Of a stretch of DNA of 61,244 bases, positions 29,208 through 43,842 are shown in pieces (the stretch's first letter is position 1; every line of letters starts with the position of its first letter). The DNA comes from a virus. The stretch is taken from positions 1-61,244 of the IMG/VR virus record IMGVR_UViG_3300034170_000071; one strand, given 5' to 3'. The notes below the pieces were generated by a model. It had not been told where the DNA came from. It did no database searches and saw only the letters and a list, made by a program, of their open reading frames with translations. A program made the position numbers and the translations under genes.

Positions 29208-29633
29208 ATGAAAATGATGCTCGCACTGGCGGCCAGCGCTAAGAAGTATTTGCCGGGCGGCCTGATGATTCGACTGGCCCGGAACTATCCGGATTTGCGG
29301 GACTTGGGCAACCGATTACTGCGCCTGCCAATTATCCCACGCGGCAATTTCGTTCCGAAGCTGCCAAAGTTTGATAACGATTTGATTGTGTACGCACAGC
29401 AGAATAAATTCGCGCTGTACTACGGTTATCGGATCTACAAAACCGAAGACAACAAAGACCAACTGGAACCGCTGCTGATGTGCGTAGACGATAAGGGCCG
29501 CGTAGTTGAGCCCGAAAAGAATCGTCTGGATAGCACGTTTTATTATGTGGGTATTCGCATTCCCGCAGACGATATCCAAAGCCGTCGCTACGCCAATAAA
29601 TTTAACCGAATGGATTATCTGAAGGACCACTGA
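29208..29633 (+). CDS. Leader-bearing protein 1, unknown
   Basis: This 141-residue basic protein has the leader MKMMLALAA, then a basic helix region (SAKKYLPGGLMIRLARNY), and a beta-rich C-terminal part (NKFALYYGYRIYKTEDN; STFYYVGIRIPADDIQ). No family is recognised. It is the first of 16 genes in the block where the leader recurs, two bases after thymidylate kinase, and its stop overlaps the next ATG. Expected role, by analogy only, is an internal virion protein. Confidence 0.6.
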   Translation: MKMMLALAASAKKYLPGGLMIRLARNYPDLRDLGNRLLRLPIIPRGNFVPKLPKFDNDLIVYAQQNKFALYYGYRIYKTEDNKDQLEPLLMCVDDKGRVVEPEKNRLDSTFYYVGIRIPADDIQSRRYANKFNRMDYLKDH

Positions 29634-31702
29634 TGGAAATGTCGATTGCTGTGAGTGTGTCCGATGATCCGCGCAAGTGGGAACTAAAAAATAAACACCG
29701 AGCTAATCGTCGCAATAAGCCTACTCACACCGTCAAGCATGGGGCCTACGTTCTGGAATGGTTCGACGGCAAGGGCGCGGATGATTTAGCAGGCCAGATT
29801 TTCGCGATTGATTCCGCGTCGGATGAGGTTGTGGGCGATGCGATGGGATTCATCGACGGTACGAAGTTGGTAGGCACCATCGAAGTGCGTAAAGACTTCC
29901 GTCGTAAAGGTCTAGCGACCCTGATGTATGACCAAATCGAAAAAGAAAGCGGTATGCGTTTTCGACCCGATGACTCTCACACAAAAGACGCTGCCGCATT
30001 CTGGAAAAATCGTATGAAAATTGATATTGCTACGGCTGCGTCAATCGCGCCACCGGGTGCAGCGGATGCTTTCATTAAGCTGCTGATTGCGATCTACAAG
30101 GCGAACGAATTCGACTACGGCACGAATTTCCAAGTCAAACTGAAGAAATGGAACGAAGAGGCTCAACCGTTCCTAGACCAGTACGCAATCAAGCGCACCT
30201 TTACCAAAACGCTGACAATGCTGGTCAACGGTGACGATGTATCGGATGAGAAATATTCGATTATTGTTGCAGGCTGCTTTGATTCCCTCAAGAAGAAAAA
30301 GAAAGCATTCGACAAAGACAAAGGATTATCCAAGTTGCAATTGGGTTTCCTGAATGACGTGCGTCTGGCCTACAAAGGATCGGAAGGCGCGGGCAAGCGC
30401 ATTATGCAGAACGTGGGATACTTCAAAGACTCCCATATCAGCAAGATGTTTTTACATGAAGAATCACAAGTGAATACTTCGGCACAAACTACGCTGTACG
30501 ATCGGTTAGAGCAGCACGTGAAAACCCACGGCAAAGTCAGTGGTCACGTAATGCCGAATACCACGCTTGAGAAATGGCGTGATAAGGCTAAGGAAGTCGG
30601 CGGTAATCTGACCGAACACCAAGACTATTTGGACATGCGCCGCCAGCGTAAAGCCATGGCAGACAAAGCGATTGCAAACATCGTCCGGGCCTCTGGTGAA
30701 CACATTGTGGACGTGGATGTAATCCGCGAACAAATGAACGGAATCCAGCACGATATTCCTGATTGGTTTGTCGGTAAGATCGACGACAAAGGGAATTACT
30801 TCACGACTGACGGATTGCAGCTGCTGAATAAACCGATTGGCGAAGGCCACATGAACCCGAATTACAAAGCGGGATCGACGGTTTATTATTGCCAGTACAA
30901 GGCGCCCTTTGCCGCCAACATGTCGAACGTGTACACGATTGCAGCGCGTACCGAAGGCCGTGTGCAGTCTTTCAACGTCGTGCAAAACATGCTGCCGGAC
31001 GTAACGAAGTATGTGAAAAAATGGCTGCCTGATTTGGCTAAGGGACCGGGCTCGTTGCGTGGCGTTGCTGCTGCTGTTTGTGAAACGATTTATCAGACAA
31101 GTGCGCGTATTGGTTCGACCCGTGGTAATACCGCTGGCGTCACCACCTACGGCATTTCTACACTGCTGCGCAAGCATGCCCTGTTTAACGATCAGCGCGT
31201 AATTTTTAAGTACGACGGGAAGAAAGGCGGTGCCCAAAAGCACGTGATCAAATTCGATGAACAGCGGACACAAATGCTACACGCTGCACTCGATGAATTC
31301 CTGTTTGAAAAGAAACCTACGGAATACATTTTCACTTTCCGTGGCAAACCGCTGTCGAACTCACAAGTGAACGGTTATCTACGCGACCTCGGATTTCCTG
31401 AAGGTTTCAGCATCCACAAATTCCGGAAACTTCGCGGTACAGCAATGGCGAAAGTGCTAATGGATAAATGTCCGTTTGGTGCCCGCGCCCGTGATGCAGA
31501 CGTTAACAAATGGATCGAGAAACAGTGCCTGACTATCGGTAAGGAACTCGGCCACATGGCAGGTACGGAAGTGACGGCCACTACGGCAATCGCGAACTAT
31601 ATCGACCCGTCTGTTTTCCTGCCGGTTTATGAGAAAACGAATACGCGCCCAAACTCCAAAATCCAAAAGGCGATTGACCTCGCCACGAAGAGTGCAGAAT
31701 AA
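29633..31702 (+). CDS. GNAT-topoisomerase IB fusion with leader
   Basis: This 689-residue protein begins with the leader MEMSIAVSV. Residues about 35-130 form a GNAT acetyltransferase (TKLVGTIEVRKDFRRKGLATLMY). A helical middle follows. From about residue 400 is a type IB topoisomerase: GSTRGNTAGVTTYGISTLLRKH, FKYDGKKGG, FTFRGKPLSNSQVNGYL, SIHKFRKLRGTAMA, KELGHMAG and a catalytic-type ANYIDP. The Arg, Lys, Arg, His and Tyr expected for cleavage-religation are all present. It would relax supercoils by transient 3'-phosphotyrosine bonds. Vaccinia and mimivirus package such an enzyme. A tyrosine recombinase is the alternative but motif order and spacing favour TopIB. Confidence 0.75.
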   Translation: MEMSIAVSVSDDPRKWELKNKHRANRRNKPTHTVKHGAYVLEWFDGKGADDLAGQIFAIDSASDEVVGDAMGFIDGTKLVGTIEVRKDFRRKGLATLMYDQIEKESGMRFRPDDSHTKDAAAFWKNRMKIDIATAASIAPPGAADAFIKLLIAIYKANEFDYGTNFQVKLKKWNEEAQPFLDQYAIKRTFTKTLTMLVNGDDVSDEKYSIIVAGCFDSLKKKKKAFDKDKGLSKLQLGFLNDVRLAYKGSEGAGKRIMQNVGYFKDSHISKMFLHEESQVNTSAQTTLYDRLEQHVKTHGKVSGHVMPNTTLEKWRDKAKEVGGNLTEHQDYLDMRRQRKAMADKAIANIVRASGEHIVDVDVIREQMNGIQHDIPDWFVGKIDDKGNYFTTDGLQLLNKPIGEGHMNPNYKAGSTVYYCQYKAPFAANMSNVYTIAARTEGRVQSFNVVQNMLPDVTKYVKKWLPDLAKGPGSLRGVAAAVCETIYQTSARIGSTRGNTAGVTTYGISTLLRKHALFNDQRVIFKYDGKKGGAQKHVIKFDEQRTQMLHAALDEFLFEKKPTEYIFTFRGKPLSNSQVNGYLRDLGFPEGFSIHKFRKLRGTAMAKVLMDKCPFGARARDADVNKWIEKQCLTIGKELGHMAGTEVTATTAIANYIDPSVFLPVYEKTNTRPNSKIQKAIDLATKSAE

Positions 31703-32080
31703 ATGGAAATGCTACTGACCGTAACACCTACCAATACCAAGCTCGACAAAAGCAATTTGATTCCGACCGGGATGAAAATCCAAGCCTTTTCGATCCACGA
31801 TCAGTACACGGATAAATACCTCGGCGCCGGTTCGCATTCCCCGTGCAGTGCTGCTGTTGCGCTGAAGAAAATCAAAGAATATACGTCGAAACTCGGCGCG
31901 GTGAACGTGATGTTTGACCTGCTGGATAATGACGGTCGTGTGATTCGTTCGAAACGTTCTTACCGCATAAGAGGCGGTGATTTGGTCCAACCGTATCCGG
32001 GTGCCGATAGCATCCTGAAAGATATCATGACGCCCACACCGAAGCCGACCAATCAGGCGAAAGCAATCCGGAACATTTAA
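31703..32080 (+). CDS. Leader-bearing protein 3, unknown
   Basis: This 125-residue protein starts immediately after the fusion gene's stop. The start MEMLLTVTP is a variant of the leader (Thr in place of the first Ala). The middle alternates strand and helix (MKIQAFSIHDQYTDKYLGAG; AAVALKKIKEYTSKLG; NVMFDLLDNDGRVI), a beta-alpha-beta pattern of a small domain. The tail is Pro/Lys-rich. No family is recognised. Confidence 0.55.
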   Translation: MEMLLTVTPTNTKLDKSNLIPTGMKIQAFSIHDQYTDKYLGAGSHSPCSAAVALKKIKEYTSKLGAVNVMFDLLDNDGRVIRSKRSYRIRGGDLVQPYPGADSILKDIMTPTPKPTNQAKAIRNI

Positions 32081-32081
32081 A

Positions 32082-32474
32082 ATGGCCTTGGCAACTCTCG
32101 AAGAATGTTTTCCATCGTGGGAAGAAATAATGGGATCATATGTTGCGGGTTCGATTGGTCCGGGGTATGTGCCGGATGTAAAAGCGTTGCAACGGCTGGA
32201 ATCGTATCCAGTAACAATAATTGTCGATGATTTGATTGATTTCGGATTTCATCCGTCAATAATTGAAAGTTTGCGCCAATACCAAACGGTCGTTTCGAAT
32301 GCGCAGGTTCGTGCGTGGCTCGAACGCGGTATTCCAGATATCGGCCCCACTGGCTGCCCGAAAGGCCCGGAAGGCCCTGAAGGTCCACGTGGTGTGGTGT
32401 CGGCTAAGGGGGAGTTGCCATGGTACGTCGAGCATCTGATGCGACAACAGCGGCGACAACAACGGATGACCTAA
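32082..32474 (+). CDS. Protein with a short collagen-like stretch
   Basis: This 130-residue protein lacks the leader. The first 95 residues are mixed helix and strand (TIIVDDLIDFGFHPSIIESL); then a run of G-x-y triplets (GPTGCPKGPEGPEGPRG), too short for a stable collagen helix alone but typical of virion fibre linkers; then a basic end (RQQRRQQRMT). It probably belongs with the structural protein that follows. No family is recognised. Confidence 0.5.
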   Translation: MALATLEECFPSWEEIMGSYVAGSIGPGYVPDVKALQRLESYPVTIIVDDLIDFGFHPSIIESLRQYQTVVSNAQVRAWLERGIPDIGPTGCPKGPEGPEGPRGVVSAKGELPWYVEHLMRQQRRQQRMT

Positions 32475-32517
32475 ACGAAAAGGATTTCCACCATATTTTA
32501 ACGGAAACTCCAGACCC

Positions 32518-33249
32518 ATGAAAGTTAACGGCAATATCACACTTTCCGAAGGTGGCGTAGTTAATAATCTCACGCTACCACGCGGCACAGCATTTCCGGC
32601 CAACGCAAACGTCGGTGAGAAATTTCGACTGACAACTGCAATCGACGCCAACACACCCGCTGGTGAATACTCCCACGATGGTACTAGCTGGCACAATCAG
32701 CCTACATTGGAAGAGGTAAAAACACTGGTTTCAAACGCAGGCGGTGCAGTTGCGTATTACCGGATAATCGGGGAAGCACGCACCGGTTTTGGTACACAGG
32801 CCGCAGGGCATTACATTTTCACAAACGCTGGTGCTAACGCGCTCACGGCAGGCACAGGTATTGTCAACTTTTCCGCGAGTATTACCGTCCCTTTCCTTTG
32901 GATTGACCCTGCGGATTATCCTGTTGGTACAAAATTCCGACTTCGTGCGCAAATATACTCAAACATTGCGACCGTTTCGGACTTCGTAATCAGCCTGCGT
33001 AAAGTGACCCGTACCGCTGCGTCACAGAGTAACGGGTCTTCGCTTTCGTTCACCGTTGATTTGACCAACCAGATTGGCCCAGTTTCCTTTACTGGTGGGC
33101 AGGCGTCCGGTGTGATTCGTACCGGTGTATCTGCGGACTTCACAATGCCAGCGACCGCTGATTTGTACTGTCTTGCGTTTGTGCAGACCAATACCATGAC
33201 CGCCAACTCCGCATGCTTGATAGAGGCTCAAATTCAAGCGAAATATTAA
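32518..33249 (+). CDS. Virion appendage/fibre-type protein
   Basis: This 243-residue, strand-rich protein's N-terminal 60 residues (NNLTLPRGTAFPANANVGEKF, later GEYSHDGTSWH) match a recurring fibre/structural module with F-P-x-N-x-x-x-G-x-x-F and Y-x-x-D-G-T-S-W. The rest is a jelly-roll-like sequence of alternating strands (GIVNFSASITVPFLWIDP; SSLSFTVDLTNQIG). It lacks the leader. It could be a head decoration or fibre tip. The 43-base gap before it has no clear promoter. Confidence 0.5.
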   Translation: MKVNGNITLSEGGVVNNLTLPRGTAFPANANVGEKFRLTTAIDANTPAGEYSHDGTSWHNQPTLEEVKTLVSNAGGAVAYYRIIGEARTGFGTQAAGHYIFTNAGANALTAGTGIVNFSASITVPFLWIDPADYPVGTKFRLRAQIYSNIATVSDFVISLRKVTRTAASQSNGSSLSFTVDLTNQIGPVSFTGGQASGVIRTGVSADFTMPATADLYCLAFVQTNTMTANSACLIEAQIQAKY

Positions 33250-33259
33250 GGTGAAAAAT

Positions 33260-33637
33260 ATGGAAGTTAGTATCGCACTGGGCGCCAATCGCCGCGAGCG
33301 TGATTACCTTTTCGGACGGCTGGCAGAACGTGGCTTCGTCGTTAGCAATCAAGAACGCCGCAAAAATGGCAGTGTCAAAATGAGCAAGGAATATTCCGAT
33401 GCTGCTACCGGTGAATTCCGCGCCCGTGTGAACCTGACGGCCATCGGCCTCAACGGTGGCGACAACGCCTTCGAATACAGCCTGTACGTGGAAACCCACG
33501 CACATGATTCCGTTACCGGCGAAAGCGTGGCGGAAGGCAATTCCATGGAAATGGCAACCCAGCAACAATACCGCATGGAAAAATTCGTGCTTTTTATTGA
33601 TTCTGCGCTGATGGCCCCGGCCTGTGTGGTGAAGTAA
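33260..33637 (+). CDS. Leader-bearing protein 4, unknown
   Basis: This 125-residue protein starts at ATG 33260, placed six bases after AAGGTGA; a GTG nine bases upstream is rejected because it is part of that ribosome site. The leader is MEVSIALGA, followed by a basic helix (NRRERDYLFGRLAERGF) and a beta-sheet-like C-terminus (FRARVNLTAIGLNGG; FEYSLYVETHAHDS). No family is recognised. Its stop overlaps the next ATG. Confidence 0.6.
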   Translation: MEVSIALGANRRERDYLFGRLAERGFVVSNQERRKNGSVKMSKEYSDAATGEFRARVNLTAIGLNGGDNAFEYSLYVETHAHDSVTGESVAEGNSMEMATQQQYRMEKFVLFIDSALMAPACVVK

Positions 33638-33969
33638 TGGAAATCATGCTCGCCCTTGCGGCCACCGAAAAACCCGAAGCTCCAAACCTCACGAAAACCA
33701 CAATCAATTACGCGACCAAACGCGGATTCGATTTGACGGTCGAGGAAATGAAAGACCAGACCCAACTTTGGATTTGGGATACCAACGAAGACAGCGAGCC
33801 GTTTTGCATTTACAGCGGTATGCCTGACGGTTGGCACTTTCACGGAAATGTTTATCTGAAAAAGGCGATTGTTTCACAACTGCCCAAGATGATTGCTGAC
33901 GACAAAGCTCTGCGCAAAGTCCTCGACTTCCTAAAGACGAACGTTCTCGACAAACGGAAACCTAAATGA
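33637..33969 (+). CDS. Leader-bearing protein 5, unknown
   Basis: This 110-residue protein has the leader MEIMLALAA. The rest is a small alpha/beta domain: KTTINYATKRGFDLTVEEM, QLWIWDTNEDSEPFCIYSG, then a C-terminal helix bundle (VSQLPKMIADDKALRKVLDFL) and a basic end. No family is recognised. The leader is identical in seven of nine positions to that of protein 1, yet five of the nine codons differ. Confidence 0.6.
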   Translation: MEIMLALAATEKPEAPNLTKTTINYATKRGFDLTVEEMKDQTQLWIWDTNEDSEPFCIYSGMPDGWHFHGNVYLKKAIVSQLPKMIADDKALRKVLDFLKTNVLDKRKPK

Positions 33970-34142
33970 TCCGGGCATTCAACGTAGACGACCTGCACAA
34001 ACAGTACGCGAATGAAACGCCAGAACAGAAGGCCGTTCGCTGTGCAGAAAACAAAGAACGCACCGAACGCTTTCTGAATCGCTGGAAAGCATTCGAGGCC
34101 AAATATCCGGAACACGCAAAAGACATGGTGTGCCACGCATGA
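33966..34142 (+). CDS. Small charged helical protein
   Basis: A 58-codon frame overlaps the previous stop and ends in an ATGA overlap with the next gene, so it is well fixed by its neighbours. It is highly charged and helical (LHKQYANETPEQKAVRCAENK; ERTERFLNRWKAFEAKYPEH). It lacks the leader. It may be a chaperone or assembly factor; no family is recognised. Confidence 0.6.
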   Translation: MIRAFNVDDLHKQYANETPEQKAVRCAENKERTERFLNRWKAFEAKYPEHAKDMVCHA

Positions 34143-34570
34143 AAATGGAACTCGCAACAGCAGCCGAACCCACTTCGCTGCCAAGCCGTTACGCCATTGG
34201 CGAACCGGTTTACTTTCACCCGGCAATCCACGATTTCACGCCGGACCAAGTACAGCAACACGCACTGAAAGCCAAAATCATGGCGGTGCGTTTCACGAAA
34301 TCGAAAGTGCTTTACGAACTGGCACTGGATACTGCGCTTGATCCGGGGCCTGCCGAGTATTACGAAGCAATTCCGCTGGCCGATGTGGATTCGTATTTCG
34401 TCCTCAACGCAGCAGATGCAATGGATGGCGACCGCCTGTTGGCCGACGTTTCCTACATGGCGACTGGTTCCAACCAATCCCGCACGCCTCAAGAAATTCG
34501 TCAGTTTGCACAATACTTTTTGGCGGTCGCTTCTGACCTTCCTGAACTACGGAAAGAACAGGGTAAATAA
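34139..34570 (+). CDS. Leader-bearing protein 6, unknown
   Basis: This 143-residue protein starts at ATG 34139 (ATGA with the previous stop) rather than the in-frame GTG nine bases earlier. The leader is MKMELATAA. A beta domain follows (YAIGEPVYFHPAIHDFTPDQV; AKIMAVRFTKSKVLYELAL, like a small SH3-type barrel), then a helical C-terminus (TPQEIRQFAQYFLAVASDL). No family is recognised. Confidence 0.6.
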   Translation: MKMELATAAEPTSLPSRYAIGEPVYFHPAIHDFTPDQVQQHALKAKIMAVRFTKSKVLYELALDTALDPGPAEYYEAIPLADVDSYFVLNAADAMDGDRLLADVSYMATGSNQSRTPQEIRQFAQYFLAVASDLPELRKEQGK

Positions 34571-34572
34571 AC

Positions 34573-34875
34573 ATGGCAAAGTCCCATTGGTTTCACGCTA
34601 AAGCCTCCAACGCTAAAAAGAAATACCTAAAGAAACATCCGGGTTCGATTTATGCTGGTGCCCGTGCTGGTGCAACCAATGGGAACGGCGCTGCTGCATA
34701 CCGCGCACAGGTTGAACACATGCGTGCGGAAATCCTACAGATTAAAAAGCAACTTCAAGAAACTCACGAATCCGACTCTGCACATGACGGGTTGATGCGC
34801 CGGTTGATGGCTCTGCAAAGAAAGCTCACGATGTTTAAACGGGCTGCCATGGCGACCGCACGTTCGAGGAAATAA
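34573..34875 (+). CDS. Small basic coiled-coil protein
   Basis: This 100-residue, very basic protein has an N-terminal Lys/Ala-rich part (HAKASNAKKKYLKKHPGSIYAGARAG) and then a long helix (AQVEHMRAEILQIKKQLQETHE; LMRRLMALQRKLTMFKRA). It lacks the leader. Composition suits a DNA-binding or scaffold-core protein. No family is recognised. Confidence 0.55.
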   Translation: MAKSHWFHAKASNAKKKYLKKHPGSIYAGARAGATNGNGAAAYRAQVEHMRAEILQIKKQLQETHESDSAHDGLMRRLMALQRKLTMFKRAAMATARSRK

Positions 34876-34876
34876 A

Positions 34877-35788
34877 ATGAAAATGTTCGTAGCCCTTGCC
34901 AAGGATTTTGGCAGTGTATTTCACGGCACATCGCTAATCAATGCTGGTGCGATTTTCAGCAGTGACAAACTCCAGCTGTCGCAAGTTGCAGGCAAAGAAG
35001 CGGAAGCACAATTCGCTAAGCAGCCTTTCTTTTTGAGCGTCCGGCGTAACCGCCTGCTGGCCTCTCAAAACTTCTACGACGTAACGCTGGAATTCAAAGA
35101 GCAGCTGTTGCAATCCAAGATGAAACGGGAATCCGTGGACTACTGGGGCGCAACCGACAAGGGCACCAGCATCGAACAGGAAGACCGATATTATTTCGCG
35201 AAAGCTAACCTGCCGAAAGCTACAAAATACATTCGCGCAATTCACATTGATTTGTCCAACTATGACCCGGCCCGTCGTGGCAAGCTCATGCGCGAACTGA
35301 TCATGTCTGCAAAACGCCTCGGTATCAAAGTTTATTTGTACCGCGACAAGAAAGCCTACGGCATGTTGAATACCCGTAAAACCGTTGCGTTATCGACGAT
35401 GGAATACGGCGGTAAATCGGTGAATCTTTTCCGCACTCGCACGCCGGAAGAGGCTGAGCAGGAAAGCGAAGACCAGAAGTACAAAGGCATGCGCGCTAAA
35501 CGCGATATGTACCGCGACATTAAATTCTTCGTGGATATCCTGTACGGCAATACCCCACCGGTTAATGACAAAACCAAGTACCTGCGCGAACGCTACGGCT
35601 ACGTGTACGGCGAATACGATTTGGTATCGCAATTCAAAGTGGAAATTCACAATTCGTCGAATAGTCAGGCGCCGAAAGATAAGCAGATGGCCGCCCGGAT
35701 TCAGGCGTGGATGCGCGACAACAAAATGGACCTCAAAGAAACGGCTTATCGCATCCGTGAAAACATCCGCAAGGCAGACGGTGAGTAA
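34877..35788 (+). CDS. ADP-ribosyltransferase-like protein with leader
   Basis: This 303-residue protein has the leader MKMFVALAK. It continues GSVFHGTSLINAGAIFSSDKLQLS, resembling the NAD-binding H-G-T start of ADP-ribosyltransferase folds, then FFLSVRRNRLLAS, VDYWGATDKG, SIEQEDRYYFAKA (an E-x-E-like turn) and YIRAIHIDLS. I recall a family of phage proteins sharing this order of HGT, SxxRS, VDYWG, EDR and IHI. T4 Alt is a leader-bearing, head-packaged ADP-ribosyltransferase, so the parallel is notable. The C-terminal 130 residues are basic and helical. Enzymatic activity is unproven; catalytic residues are assigned by pattern only. Confidence 0.45.
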   Translation: MKMFVALAKDFGSVFHGTSLINAGAIFSSDKLQLSQVAGKEAEAQFAKQPFFLSVRRNRLLASQNFYDVTLEFKEQLLQSKMKRESVDYWGATDKGTSIEQEDRYYFAKANLPKATKYIRAIHIDLSNYDPARRGKLMRELIMSAKRLGIKVYLYRDKKAYGMLNTRKTVALSTMEYGGKSVNLFRTRTPEEAEQESEDQKYKGMRAKRDMYRDIKFFVDILYGNTPPVNDKTKYLRERYGYVYGEYDLVSQFKVEIHNSSNSQAPKDKQMAARIQAWMRDNKMDLKETAYRIRENIRKADGE

Positions 35789-37696
35789 ATGGAAATTCAA
35801 ATAGCATTAGCCGCAGTAAAGCTGGGCATTGCACGGCCCCTCGTTAAGGGCTGGAATAAAAACGGCTTGGGTGCGCAGGTAATCAAACGCTTCCTGCCGA
35901 AGAACAAGAAACAAAAGAAAAATGCGTACCGTATTTATCTGCCGATCAAACCCACTAAGCAAGTGATCAAGGTTCCAAAACCGATCCTGCATGCGTTGTC
36001 GGCCAAGGGTTACGCGGTAGATGATTACGTGACCGGCATTGCAGTCGATCAGACGGGCAAACGCCGGATGCGAATCGGCAAGCTGTTGAAAGATGCAGCA
36101 TTGCTCAAAGAATTCATGAACGATCCGCAATGCGCCGCACACAAAGATGAATTTACGTGCGTTATTTCCTGCCATCCGTATGACGTGTTGGCAATGAGTA
36201 CCGGGCGCCGTTGGGACGCAACCAGCTGTATGCGTCTCGATCAACCGGGCGTAGCACGTGGTGGTGTTAATCAGGCGATTGTTAAAAACGATATTGCGGA
36301 AGGCACATTGGTTGCCTACGCGATTTCCCCGCATGACCAGAATATCAATAAGCCTCATGCGCGCCTGTTGATTAAACCTTTTGTCGGCCCGAACGGCGGC
36401 ATTCTTTTCCGTGTCGAAACTTCGATTTACGGCACGCCTATTCCGGGTTTCCGCGAAACGATTTCTAAGTGGTTGCGCAAAGTGAATCAGGGTGCATCCG
36501 CTGGCCTGTACCATTTGGTCGGTGGCCTGTATGACGACGGTGTGGGCAATATTTTCGCACACGCTGACTATGATTCGACCGTGGATAAAATTGCAGCGTT
36601 GCGCAGTTTCAAAGCGAAAACCGATAGCTCTGTGCGCGCCCTTTATGACTTGCTGCTAAGTGATAAACGCTGGCTTGCGGACTGGCTCAAGTACGCCATT
36701 GAAATCTACCACAATGACGAAATGGAAGCGGCTTATCAGGTAAGCACTTTCTACGGAACCATGCGCAAAACCGGCGACATGAAAGCTCGTATTACAGCTT
36801 CGGCATTTGGTAAAGCGCTAGACGATCATTTGGACGAAGAGCTATTCCTTAGCTTGTCTGAAATGCTGGCGCCGTTGGAATGGCGTGCTGAATTGGTTAA
36901 GGCCAGTAAAAAGCTCGCAGATTATGCAGAACAGCTTTACGATTTCAAACACTTCGACGGTGAACCGCAAGCGCCTGAATTTATCCTGAATAACGTCGCT
37001 TATTACGATTCGCGCTGGCTCGCCACAATGGATGGCCCAATCGAACCGGCCAAAGTGGCTTCGGCTTGGCGTGGGTTTCTGGCAGGCATGTACAAGTGGA
37101 CTCCGGAACTCGCTAAATCGACCATGCCGGGTTCTGTACAGCTGCGCGAACAGGTTGGTTTCTTGTGTGCCATGCTTTCCGTAGCAGACCAGAAAACCCT
37201 GCGCGTGAACCGCGATACGCTCGCTAAACTGATGAAGAAATTCCCGGTTGACTATTACTACACGGAAGCGATGGATAAATTCCTGCGTGACGTGCGGTAC
37301 ACCGGTATTTTCAAACGCTATGTTAGCCAGCCAGCGGAAAGCCTGCTGTGTGCCCTCGATAAATCGTGGCCTGCACAGAATCCAGAATTGATTTCGTTTA
37401 GTGACATTTCGATTTTCCGGAAAGGCATTTTCGAAAACCTGATGAAAGCCAACGTGGCCGACCTCGACACAGCGCTTTTCATTAAGCTGCGTGATGTGAG
37501 CCACCGCATGAGCCTAAGCGCCAGTGAATGGAAAAACCGATACCCGTGGACACTGCCGCTGATCAACAAGATCGCACGCGGGCCGGGTGATGATCGCACC
37601 ATGAACTGGGCCAAAACATTCTTGGAAGAAATCCGTAAATCGGAAGCCGACCTAGACGACATTTTCAAAGAACTCGACGGGTGGGATAAGAACTAA
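35789..37696 (+). CDS. STGR-SCM domain protein, paralogue 1, with leader
   Basis: This 635-residue protein has the leader MEIQIALAA. A shared N-terminal domain of about 250 residues has FTCVISCHPYDVLAMSTGRRWDA, SCMRL, DIAEGTLVAYAIS, DQNINKPHARLLIKPF, VETSIYGTPIPGF, WLRKVNQG and LYDDGVGN. Most of these blocks are also in paralogues 2 and 3. Conserved Cys, His, Arg and Asp residues suggest a binding or catalytic site, but I cannot name the family. The remaining 380 residues are helical and differ from the paralogues. Its stop overlaps the next ATG. Confidence 0.6.
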   Translation: MEIQIALAAVKLGIARPLVKGWNKNGLGAQVIKRFLPKNKKQKKNAYRIYLPIKPTKQVIKVPKPILHALSAKGYAVDDYVTGIAVDQTGKRRMRIGKLLKDAALLKEFMNDPQCAAHKDEFTCVISCHPYDVLAMSTGRRWDATSCMRLDQPGVARGGVNQAIVKNDIAEGTLVAYAISPHDQNINKPHARLLIKPFVGPNGGILFRVETSIYGTPIPGFRETISKWLRKVNQGASAGLYHLVGGLYDDGVGNIFAHADYDSTVDKIAALRSFKAKTDSSVRALYDLLLSDKRWLADWLKYAIEIYHNDEMEAAYQVSTFYGTMRKTGDMKARITASAFGKALDDHLDEELFLSLSEMLAPLEWRAELVKASKKLADYAEQLYDFKHFDGEPQAPEFILNNVAYYDSRWLATMDGPIEPAKVASAWRGFLAGMYKWTPELAKSTMPGSVQLREQVGFLCAMLSVADQKTLRVNRDTLAKLMKKFPVDYYYTEAMDKFLRDVRYTGIFKRYVSQPAESLLCALDKSWPAQNPELISFSDISIFRKGIFENLMKANVADLDTALFIKLRDVSHRMSLSASEWKNRYPWTLPLINKIARGPGDDRTMNWAKTFLEEIRKSEADLDDIFKELDGWDKN

Positions 37697-40452
37697 TGAA
37701 ACTCGAATTGGCTTTGGCCGCCGTGTCCATGAAAACGGCATTGAAATACCGCCGCAATTGGAACCACAAAGCTCCAATTGTGAAGCTGCTACAAAACCTG
37801 ATGCCAGCGGGGCCGGGACGCAAAGGCTACCGCCTGTATTTCGATATCGGCACCAATCACAAAAACCACTACACGATTCCGCCTGCCGTGCGCTCTGCAT
37901 TGCAAAAAGCAGGCTTCGTTGCCACCGATTATCTGGCGAAGAAATGCGTCAAGATCGCTGACAAGGATCAGAAAAACGTTTTCAATATCGGCAAGGTAAT
38001 CGGTAAAGATCCACACGCGAAAATGGCGTTCGACAATGATCCACAATTGCAGAACACTAAACAGGGTGCAATGCAGGTTGTAATCAGCTGTCACCCATAC
38101 GACATTATCGGCATGAGTACCGGGCGTGACTGGGACAAAATGTCGTGCATGCGCCTCGCTGACGGTGAACACCGATTCAACCCCGGTTCGAACCAGCATT
38201 ACGTGCGCAATGACGTGTCAGAAGGTACGTTGGTTGCTTACGTGGTTTCTGCCGACGATCAGAACATCCAGAAGCCGAAAGCCCGCTGCTTGCTGAAGCC
38301 GTTTTACAACGACGAAGGCCAAGTGTTGTACCGTCGTGAAACCACTGTTTACGGCAACCCGGTTCCCGGTTTCGATTTGATCCTTTCGCGTTTTCTGCGC
38401 AAGATCAATCAGAACATTCCGGAAGGCACTTTCAAAATGCCTAACAACCTGTACAACGATGGCATGGGCACCGAGCATTACCACAACGCATCCGACGACG
38501 ATAACCTGTCGATCCGTGATGTAGTGATGGATACCGCGCAGGCTGTGCAATTCGTACAGCAGCAATTGGCCGCAATGACCGATGATGCAACACGTGACAA
38601 GCATTCTGAAAACATCATTGAATTCCTGAATGATGAATCGGTGGAAACCCGTCTGAAAGAAACGCAGATTGACGAAATTGTCGAGGCGTTGAAAGGCACC
38701 AAGGCAGTGGTTAACGGCATTCATTTGCTGGCCTACAAAAATAAACCGCTGACCTCTGCACTGGCGGAAGTCGGGCGCCGCATTGGCTCATTCGACAAAA
38801 CCAAAGGATTTAAACCGGAAGTTTTGAGAGCGCTGGACGACGACAAAGTTCACGACCTTTCCTACGGTGGTGGCAACCCAGTAATCGAAGCGCTTAGCCG
38901 CGTAGAAACTTTGAGCGATCACGAACTACGTAATAACACTCGCATTTTCAAAATGATCCTGACGGGTAAAGCCCCAGTCCCATCGAAAGCAGAGCTGGAA
39001 GCATTGCCAAATTGCGCACGTATTTTGAATACTGCTGCGCATGCTGCCCGCCATATGACAATGTTCGGTGACGACTCGATGCAGAAAGGCGCGTATGCCA
39101 TTCTCGACCTCGGAATCGACGTTGAAAACCCAATCTGGTGGGGAGCGGATGCATCCGACATGATGTATGCAACGGGCGGTGTGAATCTGTTCCTTAGCTA
39201 CGTGATGGATAACCCCGGCAAATTGAGTTCGGATGCATTGTGGGCGTGTGACCCGTATGTGACTGCGCAGGCCTTGGCGAATCGCCGTGTATTCCGTTAC
39301 ATCGACAAGATGGAAGACCGTCAAATTTCGTACATGATGGATCACGTGAAACTGGAACAACTCAAACTGATTTTGACCAGTCCGTTTTCTGCGCAGAACT
39401 TCAAAGACAACAAAGCCGCGCTCGTTAAATACCTCGACGAAAACACCGAAGTAATCAACACCATTTTGGACAACTGGGAACCTAAGAACGTTAAAGCTCT
39501 GGCGGACTACCACTTGCCTGCCGTGATGCATTTGACTGACAACGGTATCATTTTCGGTTCGCAAATGGCTGATACCATTCAGGCTCTCATTCCGCCTGTG
39601 ATGGCGTGGACAGGACCGAAACTGAATCCAGAAACGGTGGATATCGAGAACGCAATTCAGTACATGGTGCAGGCCGGTAATCTGCTGGATAAACCGCTGC
39701 ATTTGGAACGCAAATTCGACGAAGACTATTTCGAACTACGTGACATTACCGACGTTGCCGATCACTTCCGCGATACGTGGGCAAACAAGCGTCACAGCCG
39801 CACCGATTCGTTCCCGTCGCTGATGAACAAACTGGATTTCGACGGCCAGCGTCCGGACATTTCGCATTCCAATGAATTAATGGATCATTTGGGCGCCGAT
39901 GCGTTCGGTTGGGTTCCTACCGAGAAACTACCGGGTGAAGTTCCAAACTTCCTGAAAATGGTTCGCGGCATGGAATTGGAGCCCGCGATTAGCGCCCTGT
40001 ACAGTCTGGTTAATGCCACAAGCCTGTTGCCTCTTGTGGATATCGAGGCGGGTATTGAAAACCGCATGAATGATCTGGAAATCGGCTATCCAGATGAGGA
40101 CGAAATGGACCCAGACGATTTCGCAGAGGCCATGGAGCTTTACGACGAAAAGCGCACGGAAATCGAAGATTCTTTGGCCGAAGACAATATCAAAATCATT
40201 CGTCTAAATCAGAAGCTGGTTGGTGCCCTCGAAAAGATTAAAGATTTCGTAGGCTTTGATGAGGACGCCGAGTATTGGGACGAAGACGCGCCAAACGATC
40301 CGTTCAACGCGGATATGGCAGACGTTACAGAATCCGATTACGAAGACCATGCACAGGCCCTGCGCGACCTGCGTGCTGAATTGAAAACCGAATGGGAATC
40401 CCGCCCTGATGCACTTCAGGAAATGATTAGCGACTCGGGTTTCAGTGATTAA
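37696..40452 (+). CDS. STGR-SCM domain protein, paralogue 2, with leader
   Basis: This 918-residue protein has the leader MKLELALAA, then VSMKTALKYRRNW, nearly the same as paralogue 3. Conserved blocks are ATDYLAKKCVKIADKDQKNVF, VISCHPYDIIGMSTGRDWDK, SCMRL, EGTLVAYVVS, DDQNIQKPKARCLLKPF, ETTVYGNPVPGFD and LYNDGMG. The long C-terminal region is helical with no repeats I can define and ends in an acidic stretch (YPDEDEMDPDDF; FGFDEDAEYWDEDAPND-like). It is followed by a promoter-like element and a terminator, so it closes one transcript. Confidence 0.6.
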   Translation: MKLELALAAVSMKTALKYRRNWNHKAPIVKLLQNLMPAGPGRKGYRLYFDIGTNHKNHYTIPPAVRSALQKAGFVATDYLAKKCVKIADKDQKNVFNIGKVIGKDPHAKMAFDNDPQLQNTKQGAMQVVISCHPYDIIGMSTGRDWDKMSCMRLADGEHRFNPGSNQHYVRNDVSEGTLVAYVVSADDQNIQKPKARCLLKPFYNDEGQVLYRRETTVYGNPVPGFDLILSRFLRKINQNIPEGTFKMPNNLYNDGMGTEHYHNASDDDNLSIRDVVMDTAQAVQFVQQQLAAMTDDATRDKHSENIIEFLNDESVETRLKETQIDEIVEALKGTKAVVNGIHLLAYKNKPLTSALAEVGRRIGSFDKTKGFKPEVLRALDDDKVHDLSYGGGNPVIEALSRVETLSDHELRNNTRIFKMILTGKAPVPSKAELEALPNCARILNTAAHAARHMTMFGDDSMQKGAYAILDLGIDVENPIWWGADASDMMYATGGVNLFLSYVMDNPGKLSSDALWACDPYVTAQALANRRVFRYIDKMEDRQISYMMDHVKLEQLKLILTSPFSAQNFKDNKAALVKYLDENTEVINTILDNWEPKNVKALADYHLPAVMHLTDNGIIFGSQMADTIQALIPPVMAWTGPKLNPETVDIENAIQYMVQAGNLLDKPLHLERKFDEDYFELRDITDVADHFRDTWANKRHSRTDSFPSLMNKLDFDGQRPDISHSNELMDHLGADAFGWVPTEKLPGEVPNFLKMVRGMELEPAISALYSLVNATSLLPLVDIEAGIENRMNDLEIGYPDEDEMDPDDFAEAMELYDEKRTEIEDSLAEDNIKIIRLNQKLVGALEKIKDFVGFDEDAEYWDEDAPNDPFNADMADVTESDYEDHAQALRDLRAELKTEWESRPDALQEMISDSGFSD

Positions 40453-40467
40453 AACGGTAATTTTATA
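40451..40467 (+). promoter_or_regulatory. AAAACGGTAATTTTATA element
   Basis: It contains the exact GGTAATTTTATA seen at 9556 and its first 12 bases match the AAAACTGTAAAT motif in 10 of 12 positions, linking both motif groups. It lies between the stop of paralogue 2 and a terminator, so if it is a promoter the transcript would be very short unless read-through occurs. Confidence 0.35.
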
Positions 40468-40476
40468 GTATGTTAC

Positions 40477-40511
40477 GCCGGGTTGGTTTAGGCTAATCCG
40501 GCTTTCTTTTT
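40477..40511 (+). terminator. Rho-independent terminator between paralogues 2 and 3
   Basis: GCCGGGTT (40477-40484) pairs with AATCCGGC (40495-40502), including one G-U pair, followed by TTTCTTTTT. It splits the leader block into two transcripts or attenuates the downstream part. Confidence 0.8.
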
Positions 40512-40525
40512 ATGGATCAAAAGAC

Positions 40526-43195
40526 ATGCTAATTGACTTGGCTTTTATTGGCACAGCAGCGGTTTCAATGCGGAGTGCTTTGAAGTACCGCCGCAACTGG
40601 GATAAGAACGGCCCGACCGTTCAACTACTTCGCAAATTTATGCCGCGTGGTTCCAAAGGGTTCCGCGTTTATACGCCCATTGGGCACGCACACGCAATCA
40701 GCGCAATCAATATTCCGTTGCCTGTTCGTTTGGCCGTCCGCAAAGCTGGTTTCCGTATCACGGATTATCTGGCGAAGAAATGCGTAAAGCTGAACGATAA
40801 AGATCAGAGAAACGTGTTCAATATTGGTAAGGTTATTTCCAAGGATGCTGTGGCTAAAGCCGCATTCGACAATGACCCACAATTGCAGAACAGTTCCACC
40901 GCCGAATTTACGCTGGTTGTGTCCTGTCACCCGTATGACATTATCGGTATGTCTACTGGCCGCGACTGGGATGAAACCAGCTGCATGCGCATGAAAGATT
41001 ATCGCGATAAAACAAACGATGGTTCTAACATTCGCTACCTAGAACACGACGTGGCGGAAGGTACTTTAGTTGCCTACGCAATTCGCAGTGAAGACACCAA
41101 CATTGAAAAACCGTTGGGCCGCTGCCTATTGAAACCTTTCCTGCGCGACGATGATTCAGGGACGATTTTCTACCGCCGTGAAACCGACGTATACGGCAAC
41201 CCAGTTCCGGGCATGTCCGAGACGCTGGCACGCTTCCTGCGCAAACTGAATGCCGGTGTGCCTGCTGGTATTTACAAACGCAACGAAAAACTCTACGACG
41301 ACGGCGTGGGGGATCAAGCTGAAAACGAAGGATCTTCTGACGACAATTCGATTGATTGGTCGATGGTTGACGATCAGCAGAAATTGCGCGAACGTCCTGA
41401 ATTGTTTGTGGATTTCGCAAGCTATTTGGTGAAACGGAATAAGGAGGGGGTTACAGACGCAAACGTCGTGATCAATATCCTGATCGACCATGCGAAAACA
41501 ATCGACGCCCGTTTCGTTAAGCCCGTTGCCCGTCTAATCGCGCAGCCTAAATTTGCTGCTGCTTTCTTCGAGCATGCAGCCGCTACCTTTGCCGATTCAG
41601 ACAGTGAGGCGATTGCGAAATTCATGCAATCCCGTGACCTGCGCCATGCGGTTAAGCGTGCGGAAAAGGAAAGTGGAGAGGCGCCGGATTCGTACCTATC
41701 GCTTTCGTTCCTCAGTCCTGCACACGCACACCGTTATTTCCTGCGTGAAGTGAAGCACAACGAGGATAACCTGAATTTCGCAGCACTTAGCGCCGCGTGT
41801 GGTACTGCGCATTTGAATGCCAAGGATATCGAGTCGATTCCGCAGCTGCATAAATACGTGTGGAAATATGCGGAGTTAATTCGCGAAGGTTCCGTGTATG
41901 GTTCGAAAACATTCCAAGAATCCGCGCACCGTATCCTTTCCACCGTGAAGCCATACGTCGGCCCCTACGAATCGTCAGATATTGAAGACATTGGGGAGAC
42001 ACTGGCCGAGGATAAAGACCTCTACAAAGCGCTGGTCGCTTGGTACATCAACTCGATCACCAACAACAAAGACAATTCCACCACCACGAATATTCTGACG
42101 AACATTATCGGTTATCGCCGGTTCTACCGGATGCTGAAAGATCGCCGCGTTCGTAAGCGTTTGCTGGGCCTGAAAAACATTCCAGAAGACGCCCGCGCAA
42201 TTATCGTTCGCGCTATCGGTGGTATCTTTGGTGATCATGACGACCGCGATGCACAGAGTATTCAGCGCGAATTGATTACGCACATTAAGCGCAATCCGAT
42301 GGACTGCCTTTCGTTCGAAACGTACATGGAAATCCTATCGAATGCGGACCTGCTTTATCCGTATATCTGGTTTTCCAATGAAAACGAAATCAATACCGAA
42401 ACCGTTGAACGTTTCCTGCACCGTGCGACAACCCTGCGTAATGCAGCGGCTGAATTTCCGTTTGCCGTTCCGCTCAACGAATGGCAAGAACGCATTTTCC
42501 GTGTGGCAAAAACCTTTGCACTGGTAATTGGCGAGCCTACCGCCGAAGACCAAGAGAATATGCAGGTTGACCCGGCAGTAATGGATATTCTGGTCAAACA
42601 GGGCGGCCTCATGCGTGCCTTGGGTCACTACCGGGTAAACCTTGCCGATTACCCGCAATTGTTGAACGCGGCTACTTATTCCAGTGCAGGCGTGTATCCG
42701 TATGACCTGATCGCAGACGACGACGGCGCGGCGTTTATCCAGAGCCTCAACGGTAAAGACTTGGACGCTACCGCTAGCCTGTTGGGCGCTATGGCCGCAG
42801 ACTTCGGTTCGTTCGGTGTGCCAGTCAGCGCAGCCGCTGGAATGAATCGCGTACTTACCGATATTGCCGCCCCTAAAAAGATCGGTGATTTGGTTCAGGC
42901 AACTCCGGAATATGCGGTGAAACGTTTCAATCTTTTTATCGACGCGATTCGTAAAACTGATCGTTTCATTGCGAAGTTTCCGGAAAACGGTACGCTCGCA
43001 GATTGGCAGAAAGTATTGCCGCAAATGGATGAACAGCACGTCGCACAATTCAACGAGCTTTCCGAGCGCATGCGTAAGGAATCGAAGAGCGTCAAACCTG
43101 TCGCGCAGATGTTTATTATGTTCGCGCATGGCGAAGCTAAGGACGCCCTGAAAGCTGTCATTCCGCCCGACTGGCTGACGATTGAGGATTTGTAA
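40526..43195 (+). CDS. STGR-SCM domain protein, paralogue 3, with variant leader
   Basis: This 889-residue protein's start, MLIDLAFIGTAAVSM, aligns with that of paralogue 2 if three or four residues are inserted between LAF and AAVSM. Then SALKYRRNWDK, ITDYLAKKCVKLNDKDQRNVF, VVSCHPYDIIGMSTGRDWDE, SCMRMKD, EGTLVAYAIR, DTNIEKPLGRCLLKPF, ETDVYGNPVPGM and LYDDGVGD follow. It is closer to paralogue 2 than to 1 in the N-terminal 300 residues; the helical C-terminal part is diverged. It follows the terminator at 40477. Its stop abuts the next gene. Confidence 0.6.
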   Translation: MLIDLAFIGTAAVSMRSALKYRRNWDKNGPTVQLLRKFMPRGSKGFRVYTPIGHAHAISAINIPLPVRLAVRKAGFRITDYLAKKCVKLNDKDQRNVFNIGKVISKDAVAKAAFDNDPQLQNSSTAEFTLVVSCHPYDIIGMSTGRDWDETSCMRMKDYRDKTNDGSNIRYLEHDVAEGTLVAYAIRSEDTNIEKPLGRCLLKPFLRDDDSGTIFYRRETDVYGNPVPGMSETLARFLRKLNAGVPAGIYKRNEKLYDDGVGDQAENEGSSDDNSIDWSMVDDQQKLRERPELFVDFASYLVKRNKEGVTDANVVINILIDHAKTIDARFVKPVARLIAQPKFAAAFFEHAAATFADSDSEAIAKFMQSRDLRHAVKRAEKESGEAPDSYLSLSFLSPAHAHRYFLREVKHNEDNLNFAALSAACGTAHLNAKDIESIPQLHKYVWKYAELIREGSVYGSKTFQESAHRILSTVKPYVGPYESSDIEDIGETLAEDKDLYKALVAWYINSITNNKDNSTTTNILTNIIGYRRFYRMLKDRRVRKRLLGLKNIPEDARAIIVRAIGGIFGDHDDRDAQSIQRELITHIKRNPMDCLSFETYMEILSNADLLYPYIWFSNENEINTETVERFLHRATTLRNAAAEFPFAVPLNEWQERIFRVAKTFALVIGEPTAEDQENMQVDPAVMDILVKQGGLMRALGHYRVNLADYPQLLNAATYSSAGVYPYDLIADDDGAAFIQSLNGKDLDATASLLGAMAADFGSFGVPVSAAAGMNRVLTDIAAPKKIGDLVQATPEYAVKRFNLFIDAIRKTDRFIAKFPENGTLADWQKVLPQMDEQHVAQFNELSERMRKESKSVKPVAQMFIMFAHGEAKDALKAVIPPDWLTIEDL

Positions 43196-43621
43196 ATGGA
43201 ACTTTTCATTGCGTTGGCCGCAGAGGATGTGGGCGCACGGATTTCTGATGGTGTGCGTACCATCCTGAAAAAGTCGTACAGTTCGTTGTTCGCAAACGTG
43301 TTTGTGCGTGTGTACGATATTGAGGACCGCAGTAAATCGGATATCACAATCGTAAAGGAAATGGAAAAGGAATATGCGCCGGTAATGGTGGCGGTCGAGA
43401 ATGCTATTCACGATAATGTGGTATTCATTTTCGCTGTACCAGTTCGGGCGCCTATGCTGCACATGACCAATTCCCCACTGGCATACGCAATTCACGGCAA
43501 CAAAATCGACAGTTTCAAACTTGAGTCGCGTGTTGTACAGGTGCGCGGTGCTGATTACGCAATCGCTGCCACTATTGCGCGCCGGACGCCAAACTTTATT
43601 GATATCGGAATCTCCAAATAA
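43196..43621 (+). CDS. Leader-bearing protein 11, unknown
   Basis: This 141-residue protein has the leader MELFIALAA, followed by a helix (VGARISDGVRTILKKSYSSLF) and a beta-rich domain (VFVRVYDIEDRSKSD; DNVVFIFAVPVRAPMLHM; ESRVVQVRGADYAIAA). No family is recognised. It begins directly after paralogue 3 and its stop overlaps the next ATG. Confidence 0.6.
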   Translation: MELFIALAAEDVGARISDGVRTILKKSYSSLFANVFVRVYDIEDRSKSDITIVKEMEKEYAPVMVAVENAIHDNVVFIFAVPVRAPMLHMTNSPLAYAIHGNKIDSFKLESRVVQVRGADYAIAATIARRTPNFIDIGISK

Positions 43622-43842
43622 TGGAAATACTGATCGCTTTGGCGCGTGCCGGGTCAGCTGAACGATGGGACGCCTTGCCTAGTGTACGTTTCGACCGTGC
43701 AAAGAAGGGGCGCCCGTTGGATGCTGACGGAACGATTAAAAAGAAACGCCGTAGAAAACTGAAAAGTGGACTGATCGACACGCCGTTAAAAGGCGCAGAG
43801 AAACGGCAAATGGATATTCAGGACACGGTTAGATGCCCGTGA
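43621..43842 (+). CDS. Leader-bearing protein 12, small and very basic
   Basis: This 73-residue protein starts with the leader MEILIALAR. The rest is strongly basic (FDRAKKGRPLDADGTIKKKRRRKLKSG), as expected for a small DNA-associated internal head protein, and it resembles T4 internal proteins in size and charge though not in sequence. It is the last leader-bearing gene. No family is recognised. Confidence 0.6.
   Translation: MEILIALARAGSAERWDALPSVRFDRAKKGRPLDADGTIKKKRRRKLKSGLIDTPLKGAEKRQMDIQDTVRCP

Follow-up and report, generated by a model that had tools for sequence, protein, structure and literature searches.

An eight-residue N-terminal leader on unrelated jumbo-phage proteins: a candidate capsid-targeting propeptide

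The capsid-targeting sequences (CTSs) of phage T4 end in [L/I]-x-E and are removed by gp21; residues 4 and 7, in their first part, carry the targeting information, whereas residues 8 and 10, at their end, govern processing (PMC9026906). Head propeptides of the giant phages SPN3US and phiKZ are cut after Glu by gp245 and gp175, respectively, the motif being A-x-E in SPN3US (PMC10052503, PMC9026906). Here we analyse a virus record of 61,244 bases (IMGVR_UViG_3300034170_000071; in its full length referred to as the window), a genome fragment of a jumbo phage in which twelve proteins encoded between positions 29208 and 43842 open with a common, short leader. As judged from sequence comparisons, this leader is very probably a capsid-targeting propeptide, i.e. 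a functional counterpart of the T4 CTS, and we infer that its carriers are packaged into the head, cleaved and injected.

By gene order and protein similarity the window is placed with the jumbo myoviruses HRDY3 and Lu11, its topoisomerase IB and thymidylate kinase being 80% and 79% identical to those of Pseudomonas phage HRDY3 and 79% and 62% identical to those of Lu11. PaBG, NCTB, Yoloswag and the Dickeya JA phages belong to the same group (PMC7412058).

A common leader and its phage-specific forms

The region from 29208 to 43842 contains 15 forward genes, a number that, like all gene counts given here, comes from mechanical open reading frame (ORF) calls and is hence a lower bound. Twelve of them start with M-[EK]-[ILMV]-x-[ILV]-[AT]-[LVT]-[ASGT] or a close variant, and these are the very genes on which an earlier note on this DNA had placed a common N-terminal leader. 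A thirteenth copy, MKIDIATAA, lies internally at position 30014, all leaders of the window end in Ala, Ser, Gly or Thr, and the rest of the window contains no further convincing N-terminal match. Because the core pattern occurs internally at a rate of only about 0.0001 per residue (approximately once per 8,000 positions), about 0.01 N-terminal matches are expected among the 69 genes of the window, as compared to 7 in a conservative non-overlapping gene set and 12 by direct inspection. The note had further stated that the proteins differ greatly past the leader and that the leaders use different codons, i.e. that selection acts on the peptide, and both statements hold. The three large paralogues aside, BLASTP (E ≤ 1e-3) detects no similarity among the mature parts, leaving about 11 unrelated families, and 80 of the 222 same-residue pairs use the same codon, where local codon usage predicts 75. 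As codon sharing equals expectation, it is the peptide that is conserved, not the DNA.

This result bears on the idea that the leader may be a translation-initiation or mRNA feature, or the trace of a recent gene duplication. The genes are clustered and frequently overlap by a few bases, in keeping with such an origin; however, the codon test contradicts it and rules out a translation signal, the mature parts are unrelated, and one copy of the leader survives internally, at the junction of a fused gene (see below). We attach next to no weight to this idea. A secretion signal or an N-terminal degradation signal is hardly credible either. The terminal [A/S]-x-[A/S] does resemble signal peptidase I sites, as is generally known, but the leader is only eight residues long, position 2 is mostly Glu or Lys, and small residues alternate along it. 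On inspection, the leaders do not show the combination of a basic n-region and a long hydrophobic core preceding A-x-A that defines Sec/Tat signal peptides, and they contain no hydrophobic run of seven or more residues; the earlier note likewise considered the leader too short for a normal secretion signal. Moreover, secretion would leave the exchange with T4-type CTSs described below unexplained.

Leaders are found on unrelated proteins in all of Lu11, HRDY3, PaBG, Yoloswag and JA13, and each phage uses its own version, i.e. MKIQLAVA on many proteins of Lu11, MEMMLALA in HRDY3, M[EQ]ILISLSK in JA13, MEIIVSLSA (MEIxVSLSA) in Yoloswag and MKIKISLSA in contig L199. In a set of leaders hand-picked from prior scans, leaders of different proteins from one phage are 56% identical at positions 2-8, as opposed to 35% after shuffling of the phage labels (none of 2000 shuffles attains 56%), whereas orthologues of Lu11 and HRDY3 share only 40% leader identity. 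Agreement within a genome exceeds agreement between orthologues, and the leaders therefore change together. This pattern, seen at the sequence level, points to one phage-encoded trans-acting partner that would read all leaders of a genome. A further group of large phages, represented by metagenomic contigs only (L111 and L118, 130 and 230 kb, respectively), has MKIQLSLS-type leaders and shares the head protease of the phages discussed below.

Two observations had been named in advance as speaking against a head-targeting role, namely loss of the leader in relatives without any pattern and occurrence of the same start on clearly cytoplasmic proteins such as the polymerase. Homologues within the group retain the leader, and when six complete genomes were scanned for the pattern in all six frames, no polymerase, primase, helicase or other replication protein was recognised among the carriers, although carriers of unassigned function could have other roles.

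Leader type, head protease and head genes

The decisive comparison with the T4 system is provided by a domain common to the three large paralogues of the window (HPYD...MSTxRxW..SCM), which we located at about 75 IMG/VR loci. The strict leader pattern occurs in 88 of 587 genes in loci of this phage group versus 0 of 968 genes in other loci with the same domain. In unrelated phages the domain opens with a T4-type peptide, e.g. MKIKQITE-ALKPSQYRPLVKGW or MRATEFIIE-ALKPSEYR (the last hyphen marks the end of the leader here and below), and the copy of Atu_ph07 starts with MQYTDLIE-ALKPSEYRLFVKGW, likewise T4-type. The corresponding copies are MEIVVSLS-ALPPSLYRKFVKGW in Yoloswag and MINISTS-ALKPSQYRQYVKGW in L111, and the same boundary is apparent when T4-type MKIKQITE-ALKPSQYR is set against MEIVVSLS-ALPPSLYR of the leader group. 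In 47 aligned copies an N-terminal leader of usually 8-9 residues precedes a conserved Ala, which is present in 43 of the 47. Of these leaders, 19 end in Glu, all of them T4-type, and the other 28 in Ala or Ser, all of the other type; none of the aligned leader-type copies has Glu at the boundary, as a phiKZ/SPN3US-type A-x-E motif would require. The Ala/Ser copies belong to this phage group except two (L122 and L126; one unassigned contig), which come from loci without other leaders. In the T4-type loci other proteins have Glu-ending leaders, too (MQTFKQFLSE-S, MRYTEFIIE-S). By this alignment the leader of the group is shown to be the positional equivalent of the T4-type CTS on the same domain.

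The leader type is accompanied by a type of head protease. Searches with a model of the head maturation protease phrog_18299 detected a gene in each of the 11 leader-type records (E about 1e-93 to 1e-119) and in none of the 11 T4-type records; the family matches have E values of 2e-95 in HRDY3 and 2e-128 in Yoloswag. Conversely, 8 of the 11 T4-type records contain S77, the type of T4 gp21, whereas S77 was not found in any of the 11 leader-type records examined. The latter include the complete genomes of HRDY3, Lu11, JA13 and Yoloswag, PaBG and NCTB having been searched for S78 and phrog_18299 only. The three T4-type records with neither protease are contigs of 70-144 kb, and in a second set of shorter T4-type contigs S77 was found in 4 of 10. 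Prohead proteases of types S77 and S78 were looked for in genomes of the leader group and not found, and phrog_18299 emerged as the putative partner of the leader instead. In the informative genomes the two pairings of leader type and protease type are mutually exclusive, without exception. The predicted phrog_18299 gene of the window's own phage lies outside the 61-kb fragment. Distant phages encode members of the same protease family next to portal or capsid genes, in keeping with the family's annotation as head-maturation protease; its substrate specificity is not described in the literature searched, which took in few subscription papers. Type IB topoisomerase and the phrog_18299 family tend to co-occur (PaBG, NCTB, PhiXhv, Motura, Rhizobium phages), even without a visible leader.

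Leader genes outside the cluster also lie near head genes, their neighbours being the head protease and the ATPase/gp81/major-capsid block. In HRDY3 the MEMMIALAA gene (226324) is flanked by the head maturation protease gene (224776) on one side and by the genes for the ATPase, the structural and the major head proteins (226749-230626) on the other, and Lu11 shows the same arrangement. Leader genes directly adjoin the protease or the capsid block in NCTB and PaBG, and those of contigs L193, L199 and L200 likewise lie beside these head genes, with six leader genes among the twelve genes upstream of the protease in L199. Yoloswag, JA13 and NCTB encode acidic, core-like leader proteins.

Just upstream of the capsid genes of HRDY3 (226749-228724; L186:21750-23725), the phrog_20988 'ATPase' is unusually acidic and split in two frames; it may be a scaffold or core protein and, as such, a candidate receptor of the leader. 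The major capsid proteins share an LALSS-like stretch near residue 33, missing in BcepSauron, that resembles the leader end; we did not use it as evidence because this site is at odds with the 20% by which the PaBG capsid protein has been published to be shortened.

Taken together, the swap with a T4-type CTS on the same domain, the association of leader type and protease type and the neighbouring head genes support the T4-like head-targeting code suggested by the earlier note. The leader might instead dock its carriers to another phage-made assembly, e.g. a replication compartment, a membrane site or a shared scaffold, as the phage-specific forms demand just some trans-acting partner and the topoisomerase IB cargo could act in replication. 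Yet a T4-type CTS replaces the leader exactly in homologues, leader genes cluster with head genes, the leader co-varies with the head protease and, as mentioned above, no polymerase, helicase or primase is recognised among the carriers, making docking elsewhere very improbable.

Leader genes of the window and their cargo

All features of the cluster are on the forward strand. The first gene (29208-29633, leader MKMMLALA-A at 29208-29231) encodes a 141-residue protein of the PaBG gp86 family with relatives in HRDY3, Lu11, PaBG and NCTB. It is followed by a fused gene (29633-31702), composed of a GNAT-like part (29633-30013, leader MEMSIAVS-V at 29633-29656, weak Pfam GNAT match with E 0.001) and a type IB topoisomerase part (30014-31702, phrog_23460, E 3e-251), which bears the internal leader MKIDIATA-A (30014-30037). 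HRDY3 has separate genes for the GNAT-like protein and the topoisomerase, each with its own leader, and the topoisomerase gene is also separate and leader-bearing in Lu11. According to the junction sequences, compared with those of HRDY3, a small deletion fused the GNAT end (FWKNRMK) to the topoisomerase leader in the window. From its sequence the fusion (29980-30060) looks recent, and the internal leader could still be usable as start or cleavage site.

The next leader protein (31703-32080, 125 residues) has a degenerate leader, MEMLLTVT-P (31703-31726), with MEMMLAVA-E and MKIMLATA-A in orthologues. Three genes of the cluster, starting at 32082, 32518 and 34573, have no leader. One of the two between 32082 and 33249 contains a collagen-like Gly-x-y stretch and has weak tail-fibre PHROG matches; the other has no PHROG match and may encode a fibre protein. 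Two starts had to be corrected, as the mechanical ORFs begin at GTG 33251 and GTG 34130, whereas the leaders begin at ATG 33260 and ATG 34139. The corresponding proteins have 125 residues (33260-33637, leader MEVSIALG-A at 33260-33283) and 143 residues (34139-34570, leader MKMELATA-A at 34139-34162). Between them lies a 110-residue phrog_6147 protein (33637-33969, leader MEIMLALA-A at 33637-33660). This family has matches in 376 phage records and is leaderless in the E. coli phages E26, Ro121 and JohannLBurckhardt, the three examined, suggesting that the leader is a modular addition to this protein. A QKxYLKxHPxSKY-type stretch, encoded in the leaderless gene 34573-34875, recurs near the N-terminus of several phage proteins, some of them with leaders and near the head protease (HRDY3 223205; Yoloswag from 106556; PaBG 179714; BcepSauron L230:20994-22724), and may be a second common element of head proteins.

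The 303-residue protein encoded at 34877-35788 (leader MKMFVALA-K at 34877-34900) had been described as ADP-ribosyltransferase-like; its HGT motif is indeed present, but Pfam confirmation is absent. Then follow the three paralogues, i.e. the 635-residue protein with the HPYD...MSTxRxW domain (35789-37696, leader MEIQIALA-A at 35789-35812), the 918-residue protein (37696-40452, leader MKLELALA-A at 37696-37719) and the 889-residue protein (40526-43195), which has a longer leader, MLIDLAFIGTA-A (40526-40558). An AlphaFold model of the domain from the 37696 protein shows a disordered leader, with the fold beginning only after it and the first helix at residue 12; compared with the PDB, the HPYD domain yielded no significant fold match (weak GNAT-like ones, E about 0.1 or above). 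A 141-residue protein (43196-43621, leader MELFIALA-A at 43196-43219) and a basic protein of 73 residues (43621-43842, leader MEILIALA-R at 43621-43644) complete the cluster.

Leader cargo thus comprises a type IB topoisomerase and a GNAT-like protein. In relatives, leaders also precede an ART-PolyVal domain (JA13, E 2e-27; weaker in Lu11) and a Nudix protein (Yoloswag, E 5e-11), by analogy the kinds of protein that would be expected to be injected for host takeover. T4 Alt is an injected ADP-ribosyltransferase (PMC9026906).

A putative head-import code and its known counterparts

We infer a pathway in which leader proteins bind the core, are cleaved at residue 8, and are packaged and injected. 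The alternating hydrophobic positions 3, 5 and 7 may bind the prohead core or scaffold, by which the protein would be drawn inside during assembly. The site of the cut would be set by the small residues 6 and 8, and the phrog_18299 protease would cleave after position 8, behind [A/S]-x-[A/S] and before the usual Ala. The mature topoisomerase IB, GNAT, ADP-ribosyltransferases, Nudix, HPYD and small proteins would then remain within the head and pass into the host together with the DNA.

Alternatively, the leader may target its carriers to the prohead and yet stay uncleaved, i.e. serve as a permanent tag for encapsulation, of the kind found on cargo of encapsulins or microcompartments. In favour of this, the residues past the predicted site vary in the proteins encoded at 31703 (T-P), 34877 (A-K) and 43621 (A-R); on the other hand, the boundary matches the T4-type E-A boundary, conservation is highest at the small residues 6 and 8, and the head-maturation protease is always there. 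We thus regard a permanent tag as unlikely.

Several points weigh against a cleaved and packaged propeptide. The predicted cleavage site derives solely from the alignment, and the protein encoded at 31703 would not normally be cleavable owing to Pro at the predicted P1' position. None of the 14 stained abundant virion bands of PaBG (PMC7412058), matched by mass, is recognised as leader-bearing, although low-copy cargo would escape detection as a band. The literature searched contains no virion mass spectrometry covering a leader protein; the papers on the Dickeya JA phages and PaBG hold no further virion data, and HRDY3 is absent from that literature. Members of the protease family occur in BcepSauron, SKa-4 and PhiXhv, yet the regions read there contain no leader genes, so that presence of the protease is insufficient to predict the leader. 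Because the genomes within each class are related, the 11-versus-11 contrast represents fewer independent events. Finally, the best Foldseek matches of the modelled protease (pLDDT 76) are herpesvirus assemblins, none of them significant (E ≥ 0.2), which would fit the prohead-protease superfamily without reaching significance.

Beyond the assignment of the leader as a propeptide, we consider it likely that tailed phages have a second, independently specified head-import code, in which an [A/S]-x-[A/S] propeptide, read by a phrog_18299-type protease, replaces the Glu-specific T4 code on homologous cargo, with all leaders changing along with their recogniser. The exchange of a Glu-ending for an Ala/Ser-ending peptide on the same domain, together with another protease, would be a natural case of signal and reader changing together. 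Which proteins jumbo phages pack and inject is mostly unknown and normally has to be established by proteomics. If our reading is correct, injected and virion cargo, among it anti-host enzymes and numerous proteins without an assigned function, could be read directly from the genome throughout the group, i.e. in several dozen public genomes and many metagenomic contigs. The leader may also offer a novel peptide with which to load proteins into the heads of large phages; in agreement with the earlier note, which knew of no account of this motif, no description was found in the literature searched.

Like the T4 CTS, known from IPI, IPII, IPIII and the Alt propeptide (PMC9026906), the leader is a short N-terminal peptide (about 10 residues in T4) on otherwise unrelated proteins. 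Both have the same length and position on the common cargo domain and are followed by Ala, and both systems feature a phage head protease and ADP-ribosyltransferase cargo. In contrast to the T4 CTS, the leader ends in [A/S]-x-[A/S] rather than [L/I]-x-E, its putative protease is phrog_18299 instead of an S77/gp21-type enzyme, and the cargo is far more diverse, with about 11 families in one cluster. As both the Glu cleavage motif and the S77 protease were looked for and found absent, the leader does not belong to the T4 CTS class by sequence. The phrog_18299 protease, known from annotation and position, is encoded in every complete leader-type genome, adjoining head genes, and has distant relatives in phages where no leader was found.

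SPN3US and phiKZ resemble the present group in that head and ejection proteins of giant phages are substrates of a head protease that acts at a short motif; however, SPN3US propeptides are mostly long (111-254 residues, two of 20-24), whereas a common leader of eight residues is used here. Polyvalent proteins (PMC5512222) are predicted injected phage effectors, and their ART-PolyVal domain is also found behind the leader. Instead of being combined in one long multidomain protein, the domains are here mostly separate proteins, each with its own leader.

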